From: Nanobdellota archaeon
GTDB lineage: Archaea; Nanobdellota; Nanobdellia; Pacearchaeales; GW2011-AR1
DNA: 37,172 nucleotides
Direction of reading: 5' to 3'
Assembly (NCBI GenBank): GCA_030641715.1
Contig: DAOWGX010000021.1
Span: 1-37,172, forward strand
The translations under genes and the position numbers were made by a program. Under the pieces are notes generated by a model. That model had not been told where the DNA came from. It saw only the letters and a program-made list of their open reading frames with translations, and searched no databases. Positions within the stretch are counted from its first letter, which is position 1, and each line of letters starts with the position of its first letter. Shown piece after piece: positions 9,988 through 30,575 of this stretch.

Positions 9988-10764
9988 TTAGATTTCTATC
10001 ACTTTGTCAATAAGAGTTAAGGTTTCTTTTCTCGCAGGAATTTTCACATTCAGATTATGGTATCCTTTAGTGTCATAAGTTATGTTTGCGGAAACTTCGT
10101 CGTTAGGCCAAGGTTTGTACCCTGTAATTTTCTTGCTGAATTTTAGAGTTGCATAAGGCATATTCTCCGAAGTTCTTTTTTCTAAGATGCTTATTATGTC
10201 TGGGTGGATTGGCGGTAAGGACTGAAGTTCTTTGAAGGATGTGCCCCCCCATTTTAGTATGGATTCTAAGGGAATCATTCCTTCTCCAAGTATACTAGCT
10301 AAGAGAAATTGTTTTTTTACGATATTGTCAAGCGAAGAAATATTACATTCTCTAAGTTTGGGGTTTTCGTCTTGAATGTAACACCAATAGCCTCGTTCGT
10401 CTATCTTGTTGTTTCCTATGGCGATACCGTCAAATTCTAAGTTTCCTAATAGTTTTTTAATCTTTCCCAGTCCGATTGGTATGCTAAATTTAAAGTCATA
10501 ATATTTTTCAGGATCTGAATTGTTAAAGATGATATCTTTTCTGTCCTTCCCATCGCGATAAGTAAAATAAAATCTTCCCTTCTTAGATTTATCCTCTAAA
10601 TTAATAGATATCTTAGAAAATGAACAGATAGGATTTTCATGTATAGTTGCCTTGTCGTCTATTTGAATGCATTTAGATGCTAACGTTTTTTCTAAGTTAT
10701 AGAGGTCATTTTCATACTTGATAAAAATTGGCCGGATGTTTTCCCAAAGTTCTTTTGGTTTCAT
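9988..10764 (-). CDS. Hypothetical protein (258 aa)
   Basis: Intact ORF; no family recognised. Confidence 0.6.
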   Translation of the reverse strand: MKPKELWENIRPIFIKYENDLYNLEKTLASKCIQIDDKATIHENPICSFSKISINLEDKSKKGRFYFTYRDGKDRKDIIFNNSDPEKYYDFKFSIPIGLGKIKKLLGNLEFDGIAIGNNKIDERGYWCYIQDENPKLRECNISSLDNIVKKQFLLASILGEGMIPLESILKWGGTSFKELQSLPPIHPDIISILEKRTSENMPYATLKFSKKITGYKPWPNDEVSANITYDTKGYHNLNVKIPARKETLTLIDKVIEI

Positions 10765-13589: not shown

Positions 13590-15401
13590 TTATTGATCTT
13601 GTTTTTCTCTTATAAATTTTAATAGTTTTCTAAAATTATCTTTTGTTCTTTTTGTAATGGAAACAACTTTATTTTCTATTAATAACTTCATGAAGGCTGT
13701 AGCTAGGGTTTTCTTTAGAGCAGACTGCTTATGTTGTATTTTGGCATAAGTATTTTCCCCAAATACTGCGTCAATGACGGTCTTTTTGTCAGATTCCTCT
13801 ACCAAGTCTTCTATTGGCCCCCTAATCCCTAAAGCATCATCAAATGTATGTATTCTATCTTCAACATAACTTTCAAATTCTTTAACATAATTTGTCTTGG
13901 ATTTTCTCCCACCCCTATCCCCATCTAGTATTATTACAAAGTTGCTTCCCCATGCAAGATATAATCTAAGAATATCCCACAATTTATCACAACCTGCGCC
14001 TGGATAAAAATTATATTCAAATTTATCTCTAAGTATTGTTTTTACAAAATACTTTAACGCATAGAAATCATTTTTACCTTCTAATATCGTTATATTTGGA
14101 ATAGGTTCAAGAAAACTAGGTCTATAATCCAACCTGTCCAGAATAGGTTGAAAGTAAGAAATTTTATCGTCTCCCAATCCCTGTCCAACGTATCTAAAAT
14201 ACTTAATAACCTCTATTTTTGCATTATCCTCTTCATTTAAATTCCCAGAAAATTCTTCTTCGGTGAGACTTTCATTTATACATATATATGAGCCACTTAA
14301 CCATTTTGGATTAATTAGGTGGTGACTATGCGTGGAATAGATCACTAAAGACTCCTTGCTTAAATCCTCTATTGCCTCAATTATTTTGGATTGTGCAGAA
14401 GAATGTAAGTTTGAAGCTGGCTCATCTAATAGAAAAAGTATATTTCTTGTTCTGGTTTTTCTAAATTCTGTAAATAATAAAAATGAGAAAAACCATTTAA
14501 ATCCCTTACTTCGCTCGTTTACTGAAAATATCTTCCCAGTATTTGTTTTAATTTTAAAAGATACTTCAAGTATTTTGTTTGCATATTTTGTATTAATCTT
14601 AATTTCCTTAAAGTTTATTTTCTGTTCTCCAAATAAAGCGCTCCATCTTGAAGTTATTTTTTCATCCAAGATTCTTTCCATTGAAGATATACGATTTTCC
14701 GCGGGATCATTATCCGTCTCCCAAATATCAACAACATGTTCTTGGAAATTCAAATCTGGGTTTGAAGTTTTTAGTATGTCGTTCAAAACAGATTGCCAAA
14801 TCTTATTATTTTTCATTGAAATACTTTCACTTTCAACAGCCCCGGATACCGTGAAAAATATGTTCTCTGGAATTTCAAAAATAAAGTCATCATAATATAA
14901 AATTTCTGGAATTAGTTCTCCTTTTATGAAATCTATAAGTTTTTGCCAACTTTCATTGTCGGTTTTAGAGAGAGATTTTGACGATGATAATGTTTTTGCA
15001 TCAAAGCTACAGGATATATTTGTTTGTTGGAATTTATGTAATTTAAAATTAAATTTGAATGCATATGAAAATTCATTAGAAATTTCTAAAGACGTTCTTT
15101 TTCCTAACTCTTTTTTCCAATAATCATTAATTTTTTCTATATCTTCTTTCTCAAATACAAGATTGGACTCGACATAAATATCTCCCGTAAAATCAGTCCC
15201 TTTCGGTCTGAAGATATTTAAAGATTCTTCCAGTGGCTCGTTTCCTTTAATCATTTGATAAAATAGATTTATTGCTTCCATAACACTGGTTTTTCCACTT
15301 TCATTTAAACCAACCAAAGTAATAATTCGATCACTGTCCAAATCTACGCTAACTTTATGGATTCCCTTAAAATTTTTAACTACGAAATTCTTATATAACA
15401 T
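13590..15401 (-). CDS. OLD family ATP-dependent nuclease (AAA ATPase + TOPRIM)
   Basis: Walker A VGLNESGKTSVMEAI, Walker B NILFLLDEPASNLH, YSTHSHHLI, TOPRIM-like ILEGKNDFYAL and VIILDGDRGG. Confidence 0.9.
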   Translation of the reverse strand: MLYKNFVVKNFKGIHKVSVDLDSDRIITLVGLNESGKTSVMEAINLFYQMIKGNEPLEESLNIFRPKGTDFTGDIYVESNLVFEKEDIEKINDYWKKELGKRTSLEISNEFSYAFKFNFKLHKFQQTNISCSFDAKTLSSSKSLSKTDNESWQKLIDFIKGELIPEILYYDDFIFEIPENIFFTVSGAVESESISMKNNKIWQSVLNDILKTSNPDLNFQEHVVDIWETDNDPAENRISSMERILDEKITSRWSALFGEQKINFKEIKINTKYANKILEVSFKIKTNTGKIFSVNERSKGFKWFFSFLLFTEFRKTRTRNILFLLDEPASNLHSSAQSKIIEAIEDLSKESLVIYSTHSHHLINPKWLSGSYICINESLTEEEFSGNLNEEDNAKIEVIKYFRYVGQGLGDDKISYFQPILDRLDYRPSFLEPIPNITILEGKNDFYALKYFVKTILRDKFEYNFYPGAGCDKLWDILRLYLAWGSNFVIILDGDRGGRKSKTNYVKEFESYVEDRIHTFDDALGIRGPIEDLVEESDKKTVIDAVFGENTYAKIQHKQSALKKTLATAFMKLLIENKVVSITKRTKDNFRKLLKFIREKQDQ

Positions 15402-16702: not shown

Positions 16703-18817
16703 TTATGACTTTCTTCTATATTCCTCAACTATTTCCAAAATTCTCGCCCCGTATTTTATCAATTTTGAAGGACCAATACCGTCAATTTTTGAAAGTTCCT
16801 CCGCGGTTGTTGGTAATTTTTGTGAGATTAATTCTATTGTTTTGTTATTAAGAATTGTATAGGCTGGGACGTTGTTTTCGTGACTAAGGATGCTTCTCCA
16901 ACTGACTAATTCTTCTAAGATTCTAGGGTTAGTTGATTCTGATTTATCTTGCTTGGGCAGGGATTTTCCTTCAATCATTTTTAACATTTCGTCGTTGATA
17001 AAATAAGTTCTTTTCTTTCCCGAGTAAGTCAAATACAAAATTTCTTTTGCTCGCGAGATTGCGACGTAAAATAATCGTCTTTCTTCTTCGAGCTTGTTGT
17101 AATCGTCAGTTTTAATCATCTCGATTGCAGGATGATCTGAAGCTTTGCATGGGAAATTTTGTTCGTTACATCCAACAACGAAAATCTTTTTCGCTTCGAG
17201 ACCTTTAATGGCATGGATTGTTGCCAAGGTCACGTCGCTGATTGTTCCTTCTGTATGTTTTTGAATTTCATCAGTCTTGACAATATGAGAAATTCCTTGT
17301 TTTTTCATCAACTGTGAAATCTCCTGAAGCTGTCGATTTGTTCTTACCAATACAAAAATTTCTCCTCTTGTAACTTTGGACTCTAAAATTTTTTTAATTA
17401 TAAAATTTCTCTCAGTTTCTTCAGATTCGAAATCAATAATCTTAATTTTTACATCTTTTGATTCTTGATGATACTCCAAGTCTGGAAGTCCCATACTCTC
17501 GATAGAATGATTCATAAATTTTACAATGTCTCTAACGCTTCGGTAGTTTTTTGTTAGATGAATAATTTCCGAATTGGGATAGTCTTTTTCAAAATTAAGA
17601 ATATAATTGATGTTTGCGCCCCTCCATCCGAAGATAGATTGTCGTGGATCACCGACGGCAAAAAAATTCTTTGGTTTTAGAAGATGAATCAGTTCTACTT
17701 GCATTGCATTAACATCTTGATATTCATCTACGAGGATATATTCGAATTCTGGAATCTCTGGAATGTTGTTCTTTAAAAATTTCGTTGCATCGAGAATTTG
17801 ATCAGTGTAATCTCGAAGTCCTTGCATTAGCATATGCTCTTTCAAATACTTTATAATCTGATAAACTCTCTTAGCGTTATATCTATTTTTTATATCGACG
17901 TTTTTTGAAAAATCGTATTCTTCTTCGCCAGTTACTTTAAAGTAATCCATTACTGAAAAACAATCGTTCATAAAACTATTTGCTAACTGGTTCCCTGTTT
18001 TGAACTTTCTTTGCTGGGGTGTAAAATATGATTGTAAAGCATCTTCCATACCGATTCCTAAATTTTCAAGAGCCATATTCATCGCGAGAATTTTATCTGT
18101 GTAAGATTGAACTTTAGTTGGACGACCATAAATTTGATGACCATGTTTTTGTAAAATTTTTTCACAAAATGAGTTAAACGTGTGTACGTTTACACTATTA
18201 ATATTTAGTTCATAAAGTCTTTTTTCCATTTCTTGTCGAGCTTTTCGCGTGAATGTAATCGCTAGAATTTTTTCTGGAGACACTCCTTGATATTTGACCA
18301 AAAATTCTATTCTTTTAGTGAGAACGGTTGTTTTTCCAGAACCCGCACCTGCAACGCAAAGAATTTTTCCCGCTTCGGAAATTATTGCTTTTTTTTGTTT
18401 ATTATTATATTCTCCAAGAAAACTTTCGAGCGCTTTGAATTTTTCTTTATCTTCTTCGGTAACTTTAGTCTGTTTAAGTTTAATCCTGTTTTTTAGTTCC
18501 TTTTTTGACATAGTTGGATGTGTAATTTCGTTTTGTCCTTTAATCGTTAACCTTAAGATTTTTACAAATTGATTATAGTCACTTGTCGAAAGTTCTATCA
18601 TGCCATTCGTGATTAATTTATCAATTTCTTGATAAATCTTGTTTTTGTCCCAACATAGGCTGCCAAAATTGTATAATTCATCTAAATTATTTTTTACTAC
18701 AGATTTGTTTTTATAGTCTCCATTTAAAAAATCTGCAAGGAGAGTTTTTCCAACTTGAAATGGTAATTCCATTAATGCTTTGAGTATTTTAAGATATTCT
18801 AAATTTTCCTCTTCCAT
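16703..18817 (-). CDS. UvrD/Rep-type SF1 DNA helicase with C-terminal HRDC-like domain
   Basis: CVAGAGSGKTTVLTKRIEFL, ILVDEYQDVNAMQ, VGDPRQSIFGWRGA, YVAISRAKEILYLTYS; C-terminal LPTTAEELSKIDGIGPSKLIKYGARILEIV (HRDC). Confidence 0.92.
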   Translation of the reverse strand: MEEENLEYLKILKALMELPFQVGKTLLADFLNGDYKNKSVVKNNLDELYNFGSLCWDKNKIYQEIDKLITNGMIELSTSDYNQFVKILRLTIKGQNEITHPTMSKKELKNRIKLKQTKVTEEDKEKFKALESFLGEYNNKQKKAIISEAGKILCVAGAGSGKTTVLTKRIEFLVKYQGVSPEKILAITFTRKARQEMEKRLYELNINSVNVHTFNSFCEKILQKHGHQIYGRPTKVQSYTDKILAMNMALENLGIGMEDALQSYFTPQQRKFKTGNQLANSFMNDCFSVMDYFKVTGEEEYDFSKNVDIKNRYNAKRVYQIIKYLKEHMLMQGLRDYTDQILDATKFLKNNIPEIPEFEYILVDEYQDVNAMQVELIHLLKPKNFFAVGDPRQSIFGWRGANINYILNFEKDYPNSEIIHLTKNYRSVRDIVKFMNHSIESMGLPDLEYHQESKDVKIKIIDFESEETERNFIIKKILESKVTRGEIFVLVRTNRQLQEISQLMKKQGISHIVKTDEIQKHTEGTISDVTLATIHAIKGLEAKKIFVVGCNEQNFPCKASDHPAIEMIKTDDYNKLEEERRLFYVAISRAKEILYLTYSGKKRTYFINDEMLKMIEGKSLPKQDKSESTNPRILEELVSWRSILSHENNVPAYTILNNKTIELISQKLPTTAEELSKIDGIGPSKLIKYGARILEIVEEYRRKS

Positions 18818-23652: not shown

Positions 23653-23928
23653 ATGATGGAAATTAAAAAACGATCTAAGCCGATTGGGAAGTTGAAGGAA
23701 GGCGATAAGCTTTGGATTAATGAGAAGGAGATGAGGGTGGATAAGCATTTTTTGTTTCAGGATCATGGGGATACGAAGGAGATGATTGTGGAGGTTTTTA
23801 ATCCGGCGAATGAGCGGGAGTACCAGGTTCGGTATTTTGATGACCAGGTTGAGTCGTCGATTGAAGTTTATGAGTTGATGGATGAGTTTCAGTATGTTAG
23901 AAGGGAAGCGAAAATGATAAGTTGGTAG
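23653..23928 (+). CDS. Hypothetical protein (91 aa)
   Basis: Intact ORF with codon usage resembling the housekeeping genes here. Confidence 0.6.
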   Translation: MMEIKKRSKPIGKLKEGDKLWINEKEMRVDKHFLFQDHGDTKEMIVEVFNPANEREYQVRYFDDQVESSIEVYELMDEFQYVRREAKMISW

Positions 23929-23946
23929 TGTGGGATAGATATTTAT

Positions 23947-24495
23947 TTATCGAGGTTTTAGAAAGTTTACTAAGTCTTTTGATTTTTCGTGATACTCATT
24001 AACCTTAATTCTATTATATCTACGAATAATGCTTTCATCTTTTATTCCTTTGTCTAGTACATAAGAAGCAAGACCTGCATATAACTCATGATAATCTATG
24101 CTCTTTGTTTTTCCAATCTTATTTATTTTCTTGCCTATTTCCCATACGGGGGCACGACTAGTTTTATTATTGTGTGCCATATTTAGATAAAATGCACAAT
24201 CACAAAGATAATCTAAAAGTTGGAGATTAGATGTAGCATTTCTTGTCATAATGATAACAGGCAGATAATGCTTTTGCGTTAATTCTTCAAGATTAGTAAT
24301 TATGTTTCCTAAGTATTCATTTCCCTTGGAAGTCAAATGATATTTTTTGTCAATTAAGCCATGATCTATGGCATTGTCGAAGTGTTCTTTTTTGACAAGA
24401 TGTTTTGATAGGAATTTTCTTAAAGACCTGTCTTGTTGCCCGTTAATTATTATGTCTTCTTTCCAAACTCTTAGACGCCTGTTTATCTTTCCCAT
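23947..24495 (-). CDS. Unknown protein (182 aa), apparently paralogous to the C-terminal part of the adjacent 370-aa protein
   Basis: Aligns by eye with the neighbour: KKEHFDNAIDHGLIDKKYHLTSKGNEYL / HKKFLFEKAIKHDIVTNNYGVGNKGNGLL; ELYAGLASYVLDKGIKDE / ELFYSIASNMISKGISRGD. Confidence 0.7.
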   Translation of the reverse strand: MGKINRRLRVWKEDIIINGQQDRSLRKFLSKHLVKKEHFDNAIDHGLIDKKYHLTSKGNEYLGNIITNLEELTQKHYLPVIIMTRNATSNLQLLDYLCDCAFYLNMAHNNKTSRAPVWEIGKKINKIGKTKSIDYHELYAGLASYVLDKGIKDESIIRRYNRIKVNEYHEKSKDLVNFLKPR

Positions 24496-24514
24496 GTTAT
24501 TTTAGCATTTTCCT

Positions 24515-25627
24515 CTAATTTCCTCCAAATCTTTTTTGAGTTTCGCAGTTCTTTTCATCTTCGATATCTTTATTAATTTCCTTCAAGAAATCAATTTGTG
24601 GTTGTATATACTTATCATGCAATTTTTTACTTAGAGTGATAACTTCTTTGTTATTCTGAATATCTCCCCTACTTATTCCTTTAGAAATCATATTACTGGC
24701 TATACTATAAAATAATTCTTTAATTTGTAGATTTTCATTCTGTGATATTTTTCTGATGCTCTTTCCAATTTTTTCTCCTTTCTCACTTCCACCTAATTTG
24801 TCAGCAGACCCCGTAAAATAGTCGATAGTATCTCCTAACTCAAAAAAATAATCTGAAAAATCCATTTTAATTTTCTCATTCATAGGCATCATCATTGGCC
24901 GTGTAAGATAAAATTCTATATCTTTATCCAACTTGGGAAAAATATCTTTCAATAGTCCATTACCTTTATTTCCCACCCCATAATTATTAGTAACAATATC
25001 ATGTTTTATAGCTTTTTCAAACAAAAATTTTTTATGACCGTTTTTTCTTAATTTTCTTAAGTTTTTCTCTGCTTTCAAAATATCTCCTGGTTTTACTCCA
25101 AGATATTCTATTGATTCTACAATGTCTTTCAAAGACCCTTCAAACTTAAAATGGCTTGGAATAAATATCCTTCCCTTTTTCTTTGTTGCAAGAAGGTCGA
25201 CATACGCTCTTAATGTGCTGTTTATTCCTAGTTGATAAGATGATAACAAATCAGAACAAATAAAAGGAACTTTCCATAAACCATAATCTTTACTTACATC
25301 ATCCACCTTTTTCTTTAATATGTTAGGATCTAGTTTTAAATCTCCTGAAGGGAAACTATTATAGTAACCGGCACTTTCTATCGTAAAACGATGTCCTATA
25401 ATAGGACCATTTTCTTCTATATTTGGCTTAGCACTAGCTCTATTTCCACTATGTCTCTTTTTATAGAAATCATTTATCTTTTTTGCGTCCTCTTGAATTA
25501 TAGCTTCGAGAGGTTTCACAACTTTTTTATAATCGATTTTATCACGATCGACAATTACAAACAAATTAGAGTCATGTGAACATTCTATTTCTTTTTCAAA
25601 TCTGATATAACCATTAACTTCTTTCAT
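24515..25627 (-). CDS. Unknown protein (370 aa): unique N-terminal region plus C-terminal domain shared with the downstream gene
   Basis: Intact ORF, 19 bp upstream of the 182-aa ORF on the same strand; no known family recognised. Confidence 0.7.
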   Translation of the reverse strand: MKEVNGYIRFEKEIECSHDSNLFVIVDRDKIDYKKVVKPLEAIIQEDAKKINDFYKKRHSGNRASAKPNIEENGPIIGHRFTIESAGYYNSFPSGDLKLDPNILKKKVDDVSKDYGLWKVPFICSDLLSSYQLGINSTLRAYVDLLATKKKGRIFIPSHFKFEGSLKDIVESIEYLGVKPGDILKAEKNLRKLRKNGHKKFLFEKAIKHDIVTNNYGVGNKGNGLLKDIFPKLDKDIEFYLTRPMMMPMNEKIKMDFSDYFFELGDTIDYFTGSADKLGGSEKGEKIGKSIRKISQNENLQIKELFYSIASNMISKGISRGDIQNNKEVITLSKKLHDKYIQPQIDFLKEINKDIEDEKNCETQKRFGGN

Positions 25628-25690
25628 TTTATTTTAATAAGTAGTAGTTATTTAAAAATGTTACTCTCTTAAAATTAAAACTCTTTTAAA

Positions 25691-26731
25691 CTAATCCAAA
25701 ATCTTCGTCTCAAGTTTCTTGTACCCAAAAAAATCTGTCGTGTAATTGTATGCACCAGCGTTGAGAAAAATAACTTTATCTCCGATTTTTGGATTGCTTA
25801 ATTTTACTTTGTATCTAAATATGTCGTCCCGCGTCGGAGAGTTCCCCTTGATTAAATAATAATTTCCTTCTTGGTCGTCGGAGAGTTCTTGTTCGATTAG
25901 CATTTTTGTGTTTGTTAGCGTGTTGTCAAGGGCGCAGTTGTAGATTGTTGTGTTGATGATTATATTTTTATTTTGGATTTGAATTATTTTGGTTATTAAT
26001 TTTATTGAAGGGGCTGCTAGGAATCTTCCCGGTTCAATTATCGTTTTTATATTGTGTTGTTCGAGAAAGTTTTTTGTGTTAGTTATTTTTTGGAAGATGT
26101 AAGGAAGAACTTTTGAGGTATACGCGCGGTAGATTGTTGGGAGTCCACCCCCGAGGTTGATGGTGTTTATTTTTTCTAAAGATTCTTTTGTCAGGGAGTC
26201 TTCGAGTTCTTCTTGGATTTCCCATTCCGAAGTGTTTTGAGATTTTCGATGGATATGGATTCCTAAATTTTTTATTAGAGGGTTGTTTTTTATTTTTGAG
26301 ACTATTTCGTTTATTTTTTTCGAAGGCATTCCATAGACAAAATATTTCCCTGTCCCGATTCGATGTTCTTGGAATTTCATTCGGAGGGAGAGGTTTATCC
26401 CAACTCCTATTTCTTTTATTGCTTCGAGGATCCTTTCTAAGTCTGTTTCGTTGTCGATGACGAAGGTTTTAATTCCTTTTGAAATTATTTCTTTTAGCTC
26501 TTTTATTGATTCGGCTTGGGTGAAGAAGGAGATTTTTTCTTTGTCTTTTATCATTTCGATTTCTTCTTTTGCGTGGATTGAGAAGTTTATGTTTGGGCAG
26601 AGCTCTTGGAGGGAGTTGCCGATTTCTCTGTTTGTTTTATAGGAGTAAGAAATTTCTAAACCTAAATCTTCTAATGTTTTTACTTGTGTGAGAAGTTTTG
26701 ATTTTGAGAGGGTGAAGTGTGCGTTAGTCAT
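25691..26731 (-). CDS. PLP-dependent amino acid decarboxylase (Orn/DAP/Arg decarboxylase 2 family)
   Basis: YSYKTNREIG (PLP Lys), LGIHIHRKSQN, INLGGGLP, IIEPGRFLAAPS, AGAYNYTTDFFGY. Confidence 0.85.
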   Translation of the reverse strand: MTNAHFTLSKSKLLTQVKTLEDLGLEISYSYKTNREIGNSLQELCPNINFSIHAKEEIEMIKDKEKISFFTQAESIKELKEIISKGIKTFVIDNETDLERILEAIKEIGVGINLSLRMKFQEHRIGTGKYFVYGMPSKKINEIVSKIKNNPLIKNLGIHIHRKSQNTSEWEIQEELEDSLTKESLEKINTINLGGGLPTIYRAYTSKVLPYIFQKITNTKNFLEQHNIKTIIEPGRFLAAPSIKLITKIIQIQNKNIIINTTIYNCALDNTLTNTKMLIEQELSDDQEGNYYLIKGNSPTRDDIFRYKVKLSNPKIGDKVIFLNAGAYNYTTDFFGYKKLETKILD

Positions 26732-28497: not shown

Positions 28498-29532
28498 CTA
28501 TTGGGTTATTTTTTTGATATTCTCTTTAAAATTTTCAAAGTCGTCTATTGGCACCATGGCACCTGTTGCGTTTTCGTGTCCGCCTCCAGTTGCGTTTTCG
28601 ATATTTTTGATTGCTTCTTTTGTTATCTTGAGGGCATTTTCTCCACGGATGGAGATGTTTACTTTTTCGGGTCGTTTAAATGCGACGATTATTAATTTGT
28701 CTTTGTGATTATAATAGAGTTTGTTTGAGATTTCAGAGGACATTGATGTGTCGCCTGAATAGGAGAAAAAAAGAACTGGAGATTTTGAATCGAAATTTGT
28801 TTCTGCTTTGTTAATCTGTTTGTTATAAAATTCGTTGAGTTGTGAATATCTTTTGTGGAATTGTTTTGTGTATTGGTTTTCTTCGAGAAGGTCGTATGCG
28901 TTTTTTGCTTTGAATAAATATTTAACTAGTTTGACGACGTTGGTTATGGAGTCCATCAATCCGAAGTTTAACATTTGAACCATTCTTCCGATTTCGCTAG
29001 AGTGGAGTGCGTTGAATGCTGAAAGTTGAGAATTTAATAACTCGGGATTTTCTTTTGAGAACTTTTCTGCGAAGTCAGGCATATAAACGTCTCCGATACA
29101 TCCGATTATTGCGAGCCATAAATCTTCTTGTTTATTGAAAATTTTTTGTGCGATGTAGGTTGTAGGTTCTGCTGAGGGCAGGGAATTAAAGTAAGATGTT
29201 TTTTTTATTATTTCTTTGGAAGTTTTAGTTTCGTGATGATCTATCCAAATGATAGGTATACTTTTTTCTTCTACGCCTTCTGCGAATTCTTTGCTTAATT
29301 CGGGCTTGTCTAGAATGAAGATTGCGTCAGGATTTAATTCTTCAACTTTTTTTAGGTATTGTTCTTTGAGGTCTGGAAACGATTTGATTGCAATGCCTCG
29401 TCCGCGTCCGATTGCTCGTTGCAAGATCAAGAAGGCGCAGAGTCCGTCCACGTCGTTGTCGAAGAAGAATAGAGGGTTTTGGGAGGCTTCAAGGTGGTCT
29501 CGAATTTCTTGGAGTTGTTCTAAGGAGAGCAT
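28498..29532 (-). CDS. DHH-DHHA1 family phosphoesterase
   Basis: FFFDNDVDGLCAFLIL, IIWIDHHET (DHH), C-terminal NATGGGHENATGAMVP (DHHA1). Confidence 0.9.
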   Translation of the reverse strand: MLSLEQLQEIRDHLEASQNPLFFFDNDVDGLCAFLILQRAIGRGRGIAIKSFPDLKEQYLKKVEELNPDAIFILDKPELSKEFAEGVEEKSIPIIWIDHHETKTSKEIIKKTSYFNSLPSAEPTTYIAQKIFNKQEDLWLAIIGCIGDVYMPDFAEKFSKENPELLNSQLSAFNALHSSEIGRMVQMLNFGLMDSITNVVKLVKYLFKAKNAYDLLEENQYTKQFHKRYSQLNEFYNKQINKAETNFDSKSPVLFFSYSGDTSMSSEISNKLYYNHKDKLIIVAFKRPEKVNISIRGENALKITKEAIKNIENATGGGHENATGAMVPIDDFENFKENIKKITQ

Positions 29533-30575
29533 TAGCAGATTACCTTCCCATTTAAAACTTGTTCTCGAAGATTTCTGATTTCTTCTATGATTATGCTTGT
29601 CCTGTTTTTTAATATGGGCTCAAGTTCGGAAGAATCTACTTTAAGGATATTTTTCAAATTTTTGAACTGTTTTACTATCAATGAATTTTCTTTTTCGGAA
29701 AGTGTTAGATGCGTGAGGAATCTGAATCCTTTTGGAGAAATACTTTCTTCGATTGGTTTTTCGAGAATGAGTCTTGCAATCGATTTTGTGTCGAGAAGTC
29801 CGTCAAAAGTTAGATTCGATAATAGTGTTTTGGATCGTTTGAGTGATAGGGTTGCGTAGTCTCTAATAATTTCCTCTCCGGTTTTTTCAACGCCCCGAAT
29901 AAGCTCTCGATATCTCATATGCATTATGTTTCCTTCCCTCCCGAGTTCTGTGAAGTTTCGTTTTATCGATTCTGATATTTTTAGTATCATTTCAGTTCTT
30001 TGGATTACCTTGCATACGTCGCTGATGGAAACTAATTCGGACATTTCAAGGATATTCAAGTTGTTGAGTTGTTCATTTAACATTTCTCTTTGTTTCTCGA
30101 GGACTTGAAGTGTTGAACTAAGACTTCTTATGATTTCGTCGGTTGATTTTAGATGATATCGGGATGAACCGTAGTAGAGCGTCGTTTTCTTTTTTCTTTC
30201 AGAGACTGCGATGACGAATGTGGGGGCTTGTTTTGCGGTTCGCTCTGCAGCTTTGTGTCTTGTTCCAGTTTCGGTTGAATGAATTGAGCTATCGGGTGTC
30301 ATAAGTATGTTTGCGTAAAGGATTCGTTTGAAGTCTTTGGAAATGACGATTGCCCCATCCATTTTACACAATTCGAAAAGTTTTTGTGGGGTTAAACGAC
30401 TGTTAATTCGAAAGCCACCCTCGATGATGTTCTGGGTATGGAGTTCTTTTGCGTCTAAGACAATCATCGCTCCGAGTCCAGATCTAACGACGTCTTCGAT
30501 AACAGTTCTCAATAGTGTTCCTGGTGAAACCATTTTAATAAAATCTCTGAATGATTTTTCTTTTTCAACAGCCAT
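29532..30575 (-). CDS. disA: DisA-type diadenylate cyclase (c-di-AMP synthase) with DisA-like linker and C-terminal HhH-like region
   Basis: GFRINSRLTPQKLFELCKMDGAIVISKDFKRILYANILMTPDSSIHSTETGTRHKAAERTAKQAPTFVIAVSERKK; helical linker; C-terminal RFLTHLTLSEKENSLIVKQFKNLKNILKVDSSELEPI. Confidence 0.92.
   Translation of the reverse strand: MAVEKEKSFRDFIKMVSPGTLLRTVIEDVVRSGLGAMIVLDAKELHTQNIIEGGFRINSRLTPQKLFELCKMDGAIVISKDFKRILYANILMTPDSSIHSTETGTRHKAAERTAKQAPTFVIAVSERKKKTTLYYGSSRYHLKSTDEIIRSLSSTLQVLEKQREMLNEQLNNLNILEMSELVSISDVCKVIQRTEMILKISESIKRNFTELGREGNIMHMRYRELIRGVEKTGEEIIRDYATLSLKRSKTLLSNLTFDGLLDTKSIARLILEKPIEESISPKGFRFLTHLTLSEKENSLIVKQFKNLKNILKVDSSELEPILKNRTSIIIEEIRNLREQVLNGKVIC

Follow-up and report, generated by a model that had tools for sequence, protein, structure and literature searches.

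Two genes on the minus strand occupy positions 23947 to 25627 of the window, the whole stretch of 37,172 nucleotides of archaeal DNA analysed here. Its archaeal character is read from the genes present (kae1, deoxyhypusine synthase and a gene order of archaeal type). The first gene of the pair (24515..25627) encodes a soluble protein of 370 aa (pI 9.1), in which a unique N-terminal region (residues 1 to ~180) is followed by a C-terminal module (residues ~186-349). The second gene (23947..24495) encodes a protein of 182 aa (pI 9.6), nearly all of which is the same module (residues 21-180). Both proteins are basic and have no membrane segments. The reading frames lie 19 nt apart (24496-24514), and an SD-like GGAGG/GAGG precedes the ATG of the 182-aa gene. 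Together, the common strand and the 19-nt gap give the two-gene operon layout of toxin-antitoxin systems; the operon is predicted from sequence alone. In the region upstream of the pair (25628..25700, minus strand), a possible archaeal TATA-like element, TTTTTAAATAA, was read by eye ~20 nt before the ATG, which makes this region compatible with leaderless transcription.

Both frames are intact and appear to be genuine genes. When 300 sequences of equal dinucleotide composition were simulated, the longest open reading frame reached 173 aa; chance is thus exceeded clearly by the 370-aa frame and narrowly by the 182-aa frame. The two copies of the module differ least at second codon positions (0.40), more at first positions (0.53) and most at third positions (0.63), a gradient that fits two coding sequences under purifying selection. 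The preliminary description had placed the genes 19 bp apart on one strand and had found their codon choice more AT-rich than that of trxB, proS or kae1, and both points hold: GC at third codon positions is 0.257 and 0.221 in the pair against 0.45-0.51 in those three genes. Further genes of the window are almost equally AT-rich (0.238, 0.245 and 0.255), so the codon choice of the pair is weak evidence for a foreign origin. Overall GC is 0.30-0.31 in the pair, compared with 0.36 for the window.

The two proteins were also said to share a C-terminal domain, beside which the longer one carries a region of its own, and alignment bears this out on both counts. BLASTP of the 182-aa against the 370-aa protein gives 49.7 bits (E=6e-12, 28% identity over 135 aa), and whole-genome searches recover the paralogous partner at E 2.3e-9 and 4.2e-10. 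The Smith-Waterman score of the pair is 135, against a mean of 37.7 (sd 6.1) and a maximum of 87 in 1000 shuffles; the other window proteins tested score at most 55 against the 182-aa protein and at most 67 against the 370-aa protein. The aligned stretch joins residues 21-180 of the short protein to residues 186-349 of the long one. At the level of sequence, these scores show the 182-aa protein and residues 186-349 of the 370-aa protein to be homologous, with the module common to both by duplication. The first ~180 residues of the 370-aa protein resemble neither copy, and a further repeat of the module inside this N-terminal half was rejected, its score being no better than those of shuffles.

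Comparison across the genus places the pair in a lineage-specific insert of 1762 bp (23929..25690) that contains just these two genes. The insert lies between a convergent 91-aa gene (23653-23928, plus strand) and a gene for a PLP-dependent decarboxylase (25691-26731). In the congener G004, only 6 bp separate the decarboxylase gene from the 91-aa gene, and the order kae1, 347-aa gene, DHH, agmatinase, deoxyhypusine synthase, decarboxylase, 91-aa gene, LamG protein, proS is kept, with the pair alone missing; the flanking proteins are 73-93% identical, except for the LamG protein (56%). A second congener, G012, likewise has an empty site, with ~1 bp between the flanks. Other relatives carry different contents at this spot, with the open reading frames here named by reading: ~0.5 kb in G003 (L055 7161-7690), with a ribbon-helix-helix-like frame and then a small one, and ~1 kb in G002 (L056 8265-9290), with a lysine-rich protein, a ribbon-helix-helix-like frame and a frame of 39 aa. 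In G015 and G010, the flanks are ~3 and ~13 kb apart. Because the site is empty in G004 and G012 and its contents vary elsewhere, the pair is most simply regarded as a gain in its own lineage, and on the genomes compared its two genes form a lineage-specific cassette in a place of variable content. What is new at this locus is the insertion site. At the boundaries of the insert there is no integrase and no tRNA, and its ends carry no convincing terminal repeats. Such a cassette-like site is generally compatible with accessory, conflict or mobile-element genes and does not single out a toxin/antidote pair.

Family searches agree with the preliminary description, in which no known family was recognised. 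Neither protein reaches the curated cut-offs of Pfam or NCBIfam; PADLOC defence models give zero matches to either even at E up to 10, PHROGs returns sub-threshold noise only, and a profile search of the PDB returns chance matches only. No known toxin or antitoxin family is matched by either protein in Pfam, NCBIfam, PADLOC or PHROGs. Below the cut-offs, two libraries point to the same part of the 182-aa protein, residues 20-75 (24271..24438, minus strand). PF24409 (wHTH-PRTase_assc) aligns weakly with residues 39-64 at profile positions ~31-57 (E 0.019 for the whole protein and 0.0052 for the segment; 17.2 bits against a cut-off of 27), and TIGR02719, the PadR-type repressor PhaQ, aligns weakly with residues 23-72 (E=0.068; 13.5 bits against a cut-off of 139). 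PF24409 matches one place in this genome, the 182-aa gene, below cut-off, and also matches weakly in all 14 of the 14 control genomes. The equivalent segment of the 370-aa protein (residues 185-245; 24893..25075, minus strand) is placed by alignment to the 182-aa protein and has no family match of its own. The stretch GLIDKKYHLTSKGNEYL looks like the wing of a winged helix and the helix that follows. Taken together, the weak but co-located matches in two libraries suggest that the shared module begins with a putative winged helix.

Structure prediction gave models of low confidence. AlphaFold2, run on two-row alignments for each protein, gave models that are unusable as a whole (mean pLDDT 34.3 for the 370-aa and 41.4 for the 182-aa protein). 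In the 182-aa model, residues 23-75 form a helix-turn-helix-strand-strand-helix with pLDDT of only 38-58, and the best part of the model, residues 41-60 (pLDDT 56-58), falls within this stretch; the arrangement would suit a winged helix but is no proof of one. Foldseek with these low-confidence models found no match below E 0.001, and the matches above that value carry no meaning. The likeness to PhaQ is a generic resemblance of fold, over the part read as winged helix. Compared with PF24409 proteins, the pair has no PRTase partner, and the match is a weak one to residues 39-64 of the 182-aa protein, the copy in the 370-aa protein being unmatched. A HEPN RNase was also considered and rejected: R-x4-6-H motifs are not conserved between the two copies where they would be expected, since in the helical part the 182-aa protein alone has them.

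No homolog of either protein was found in 16 genomes of the genus, 186 of the family and 206 of the order, in 377-378 genomes drawn from the phylum and class, or in collections of species genomes, viral contigs (IMG/VR), INPHARED phages and PLSDB plasmids. Viral contigs were queried by short peptide patterns with each protein, the N-terminal half and the module alignment; phages and plasmids were searched by tblastn with both proteins. The pattern-based scans reach close relatives only. The whole-genome profile searches extend beyond these, but their initial pass is a loose one, and distant relatives could have escaped them. The weak matches whose translations were read proved to be unrelated, among them a reverse transcriptase (L002), a ScpB-like protein (L003), a membrane protein (L007), a DHH protein (L010), an ATP:cobalamin transferase-like gene (L060) and a XerC-like recombinase (L063). 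One plasmid match (H1) runs antisense to an annotated CDS and is due to chance.

The reading that we tentatively favour, although we hold it to be less likely right than wrong, is that the paralogous pair, carried in a lineage-specific cassette, encodes accessory proteins that bind DNA, with the short protein as partner or regulator of the long one. The genes would be transcribed as a single unit, from the 370-aa into the 182-aa gene. The shared module would probably open with a winged helix-turn-helix and go on into a helical bundle, and both proteins may bind nucleic acid and oligomerise through this module. The unique N-terminal region of the 370-aa protein might provide an activity or the recognition of a target; the 182-aa protein, being the module alone, could then act as a partner or as a regulator in trans, either competing for the same DNA site or serving as a co-repressor. 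The cassette would have been gained at a spot that varies by species, with the convergent 91-aa gene on one side and the polyamine-gene operon on the other. The homology of the modules, the operon-like gap with its SD-like sequence, the empty syntenic sites and the differing contents of the spot in other relatives speak for this reading. So do the co-located winged-helix matches, the restriction of PF24409 to this one place in the genome, the appearance of GLIDKKYHLTSKGNEYL and the basic, soluble character of the proteins. Against it count the position of those matches below cut-off, with none in the 370-aa segment and PF24409 weakly present in the controls, as well as the unusable models, the empty Foldseek search and the failure to find homologs. 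Should the two genes act together, they would form a very small accessory system in an archaeon whose assembled genome measures ~0.7 Mb.

Next in standing, yet unlikely, is a remnant or cargo of a virus or mobile element residing in the chromosome, for example DNA-binding early proteins. Orphan genes of this kind account for up to ~20% in archaeal genomes and lie in dark matter islands, which often hold mobile elements and defence genes as well (Makarova et al. 2014, PMC4158269). Integrated viruses and mobile elements abound in these islands, and one of the most frequent genes there encodes a virus-associated wHTH regulator, arCOG01057 (PMC4158269). The pair resembles them in being made of narrowly spread, fast-evolving genes of no assigned function at a variable chromosomal spot; the islands, however, group roughly five or more such genes (PMC4158269), whereas only two are inserted here. 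The orphan status of the pair, its absence from syntenic relatives and its low GC all suit such an origin. On the other hand, the site offers neither integrase, convincing terminal repeats nor tRNA, and neither IMG/VR (by short peptide patterns), the INPHARED phages nor the PLSDB plasmids contain a match.

In a toxin/antidote pair, the N-terminal region would make the 370-aa protein toxic, and hetero-oligomerisation with the 182-aa paralog of the module would neutralise it. A two-gene operon with a shared module and one unique domain, present like a cassette at a variable spot, has the outline of such a system, as do the ribbon-helix-helix-like frames followed by a small frame in G002 and G003, a layout of antitoxin-type pairs. 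Here the likeness to toxin-antitoxin operons ends, since no toxin or antitoxin family or motif is matched, the R-x4-6-H (HEPN-like) motifs of the helical part are confined to the 182-aa protein, the larger gene comes first (the less usual order for such pairs), and the collections searched yielded no homologs. We regard a toxin/antidote pair as improbable. Equally improbable is that two quickly evolving orphan genes, with at most a small role specific to the host, have been retained by chance and that the duplication led to no functional pairing. Orphan genes are not rare in the window: a 258-aa protein and a 603-aa ATPase also had no match in the other 15 genomes of the genus at the thresholds applied. 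The intact frames and the constraint on second codon positions, as under purifying selection, argue against this reading. Least convincing is a two-protein anti-virus defence unit, for which the small accessory operon at a variable spot and an AAA/OLD-like ATPase with similarity to AriA and GajA ~8.5 kb away in the window might speak, but which has no recognisable effector, no PADLOC match at E=10 and several ordinary genes between the ATPase and the pair.

A broader proposal would make the pair the first example of an undescribed two-component system for conflict or regulation in small archaea. The effector would have as its antidote or on-off partner a truncated paralog of its own module, both being encoded by a cassette of just two genes in a place of variable content. 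We hold this to be very doubtful; one orphan pair for which no relatives were found does not yet support a wider claim. The conserved spot that separates the 91-aa gene from the polyamine operon differs in content by species and offers a handle for finding further accessory cassettes in the genus.

Several other genes of the window were observed in passing. The 603-aa AAA ATPase (13590-15401, minus strand) is similar to the OLD, AriA and GajA models of defence systems (PADLOC E 2.7e-25 for AriA), and its absence from the 15 other genomes of the genus refers to a threshold of E <= 1e-20. A UvrD helicase with an HRDC domain (16703-18817, minus strand) also matches GajB models; a Gabija pair is doubtful, because a membrane protein and a tRNA-Glu separate the helicase from the ATPase. 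The 258-aa protein (9988-10764, minus strand) has no Pfam match. The 91-aa protein (23653-23928, plus strand) has no assigned function, is present in 14 of the 16 genomes of the genus and is followed downstream by variable gene content; in G003 and G002, different small cassettes seem to exchange at the spot between it and the decarboxylase. The 347-aa protein (29532-30575, minus strand) reads by eye like a DisA-type diadenylate cyclase, with DGAIVIS and GTRHKAAER stretches.
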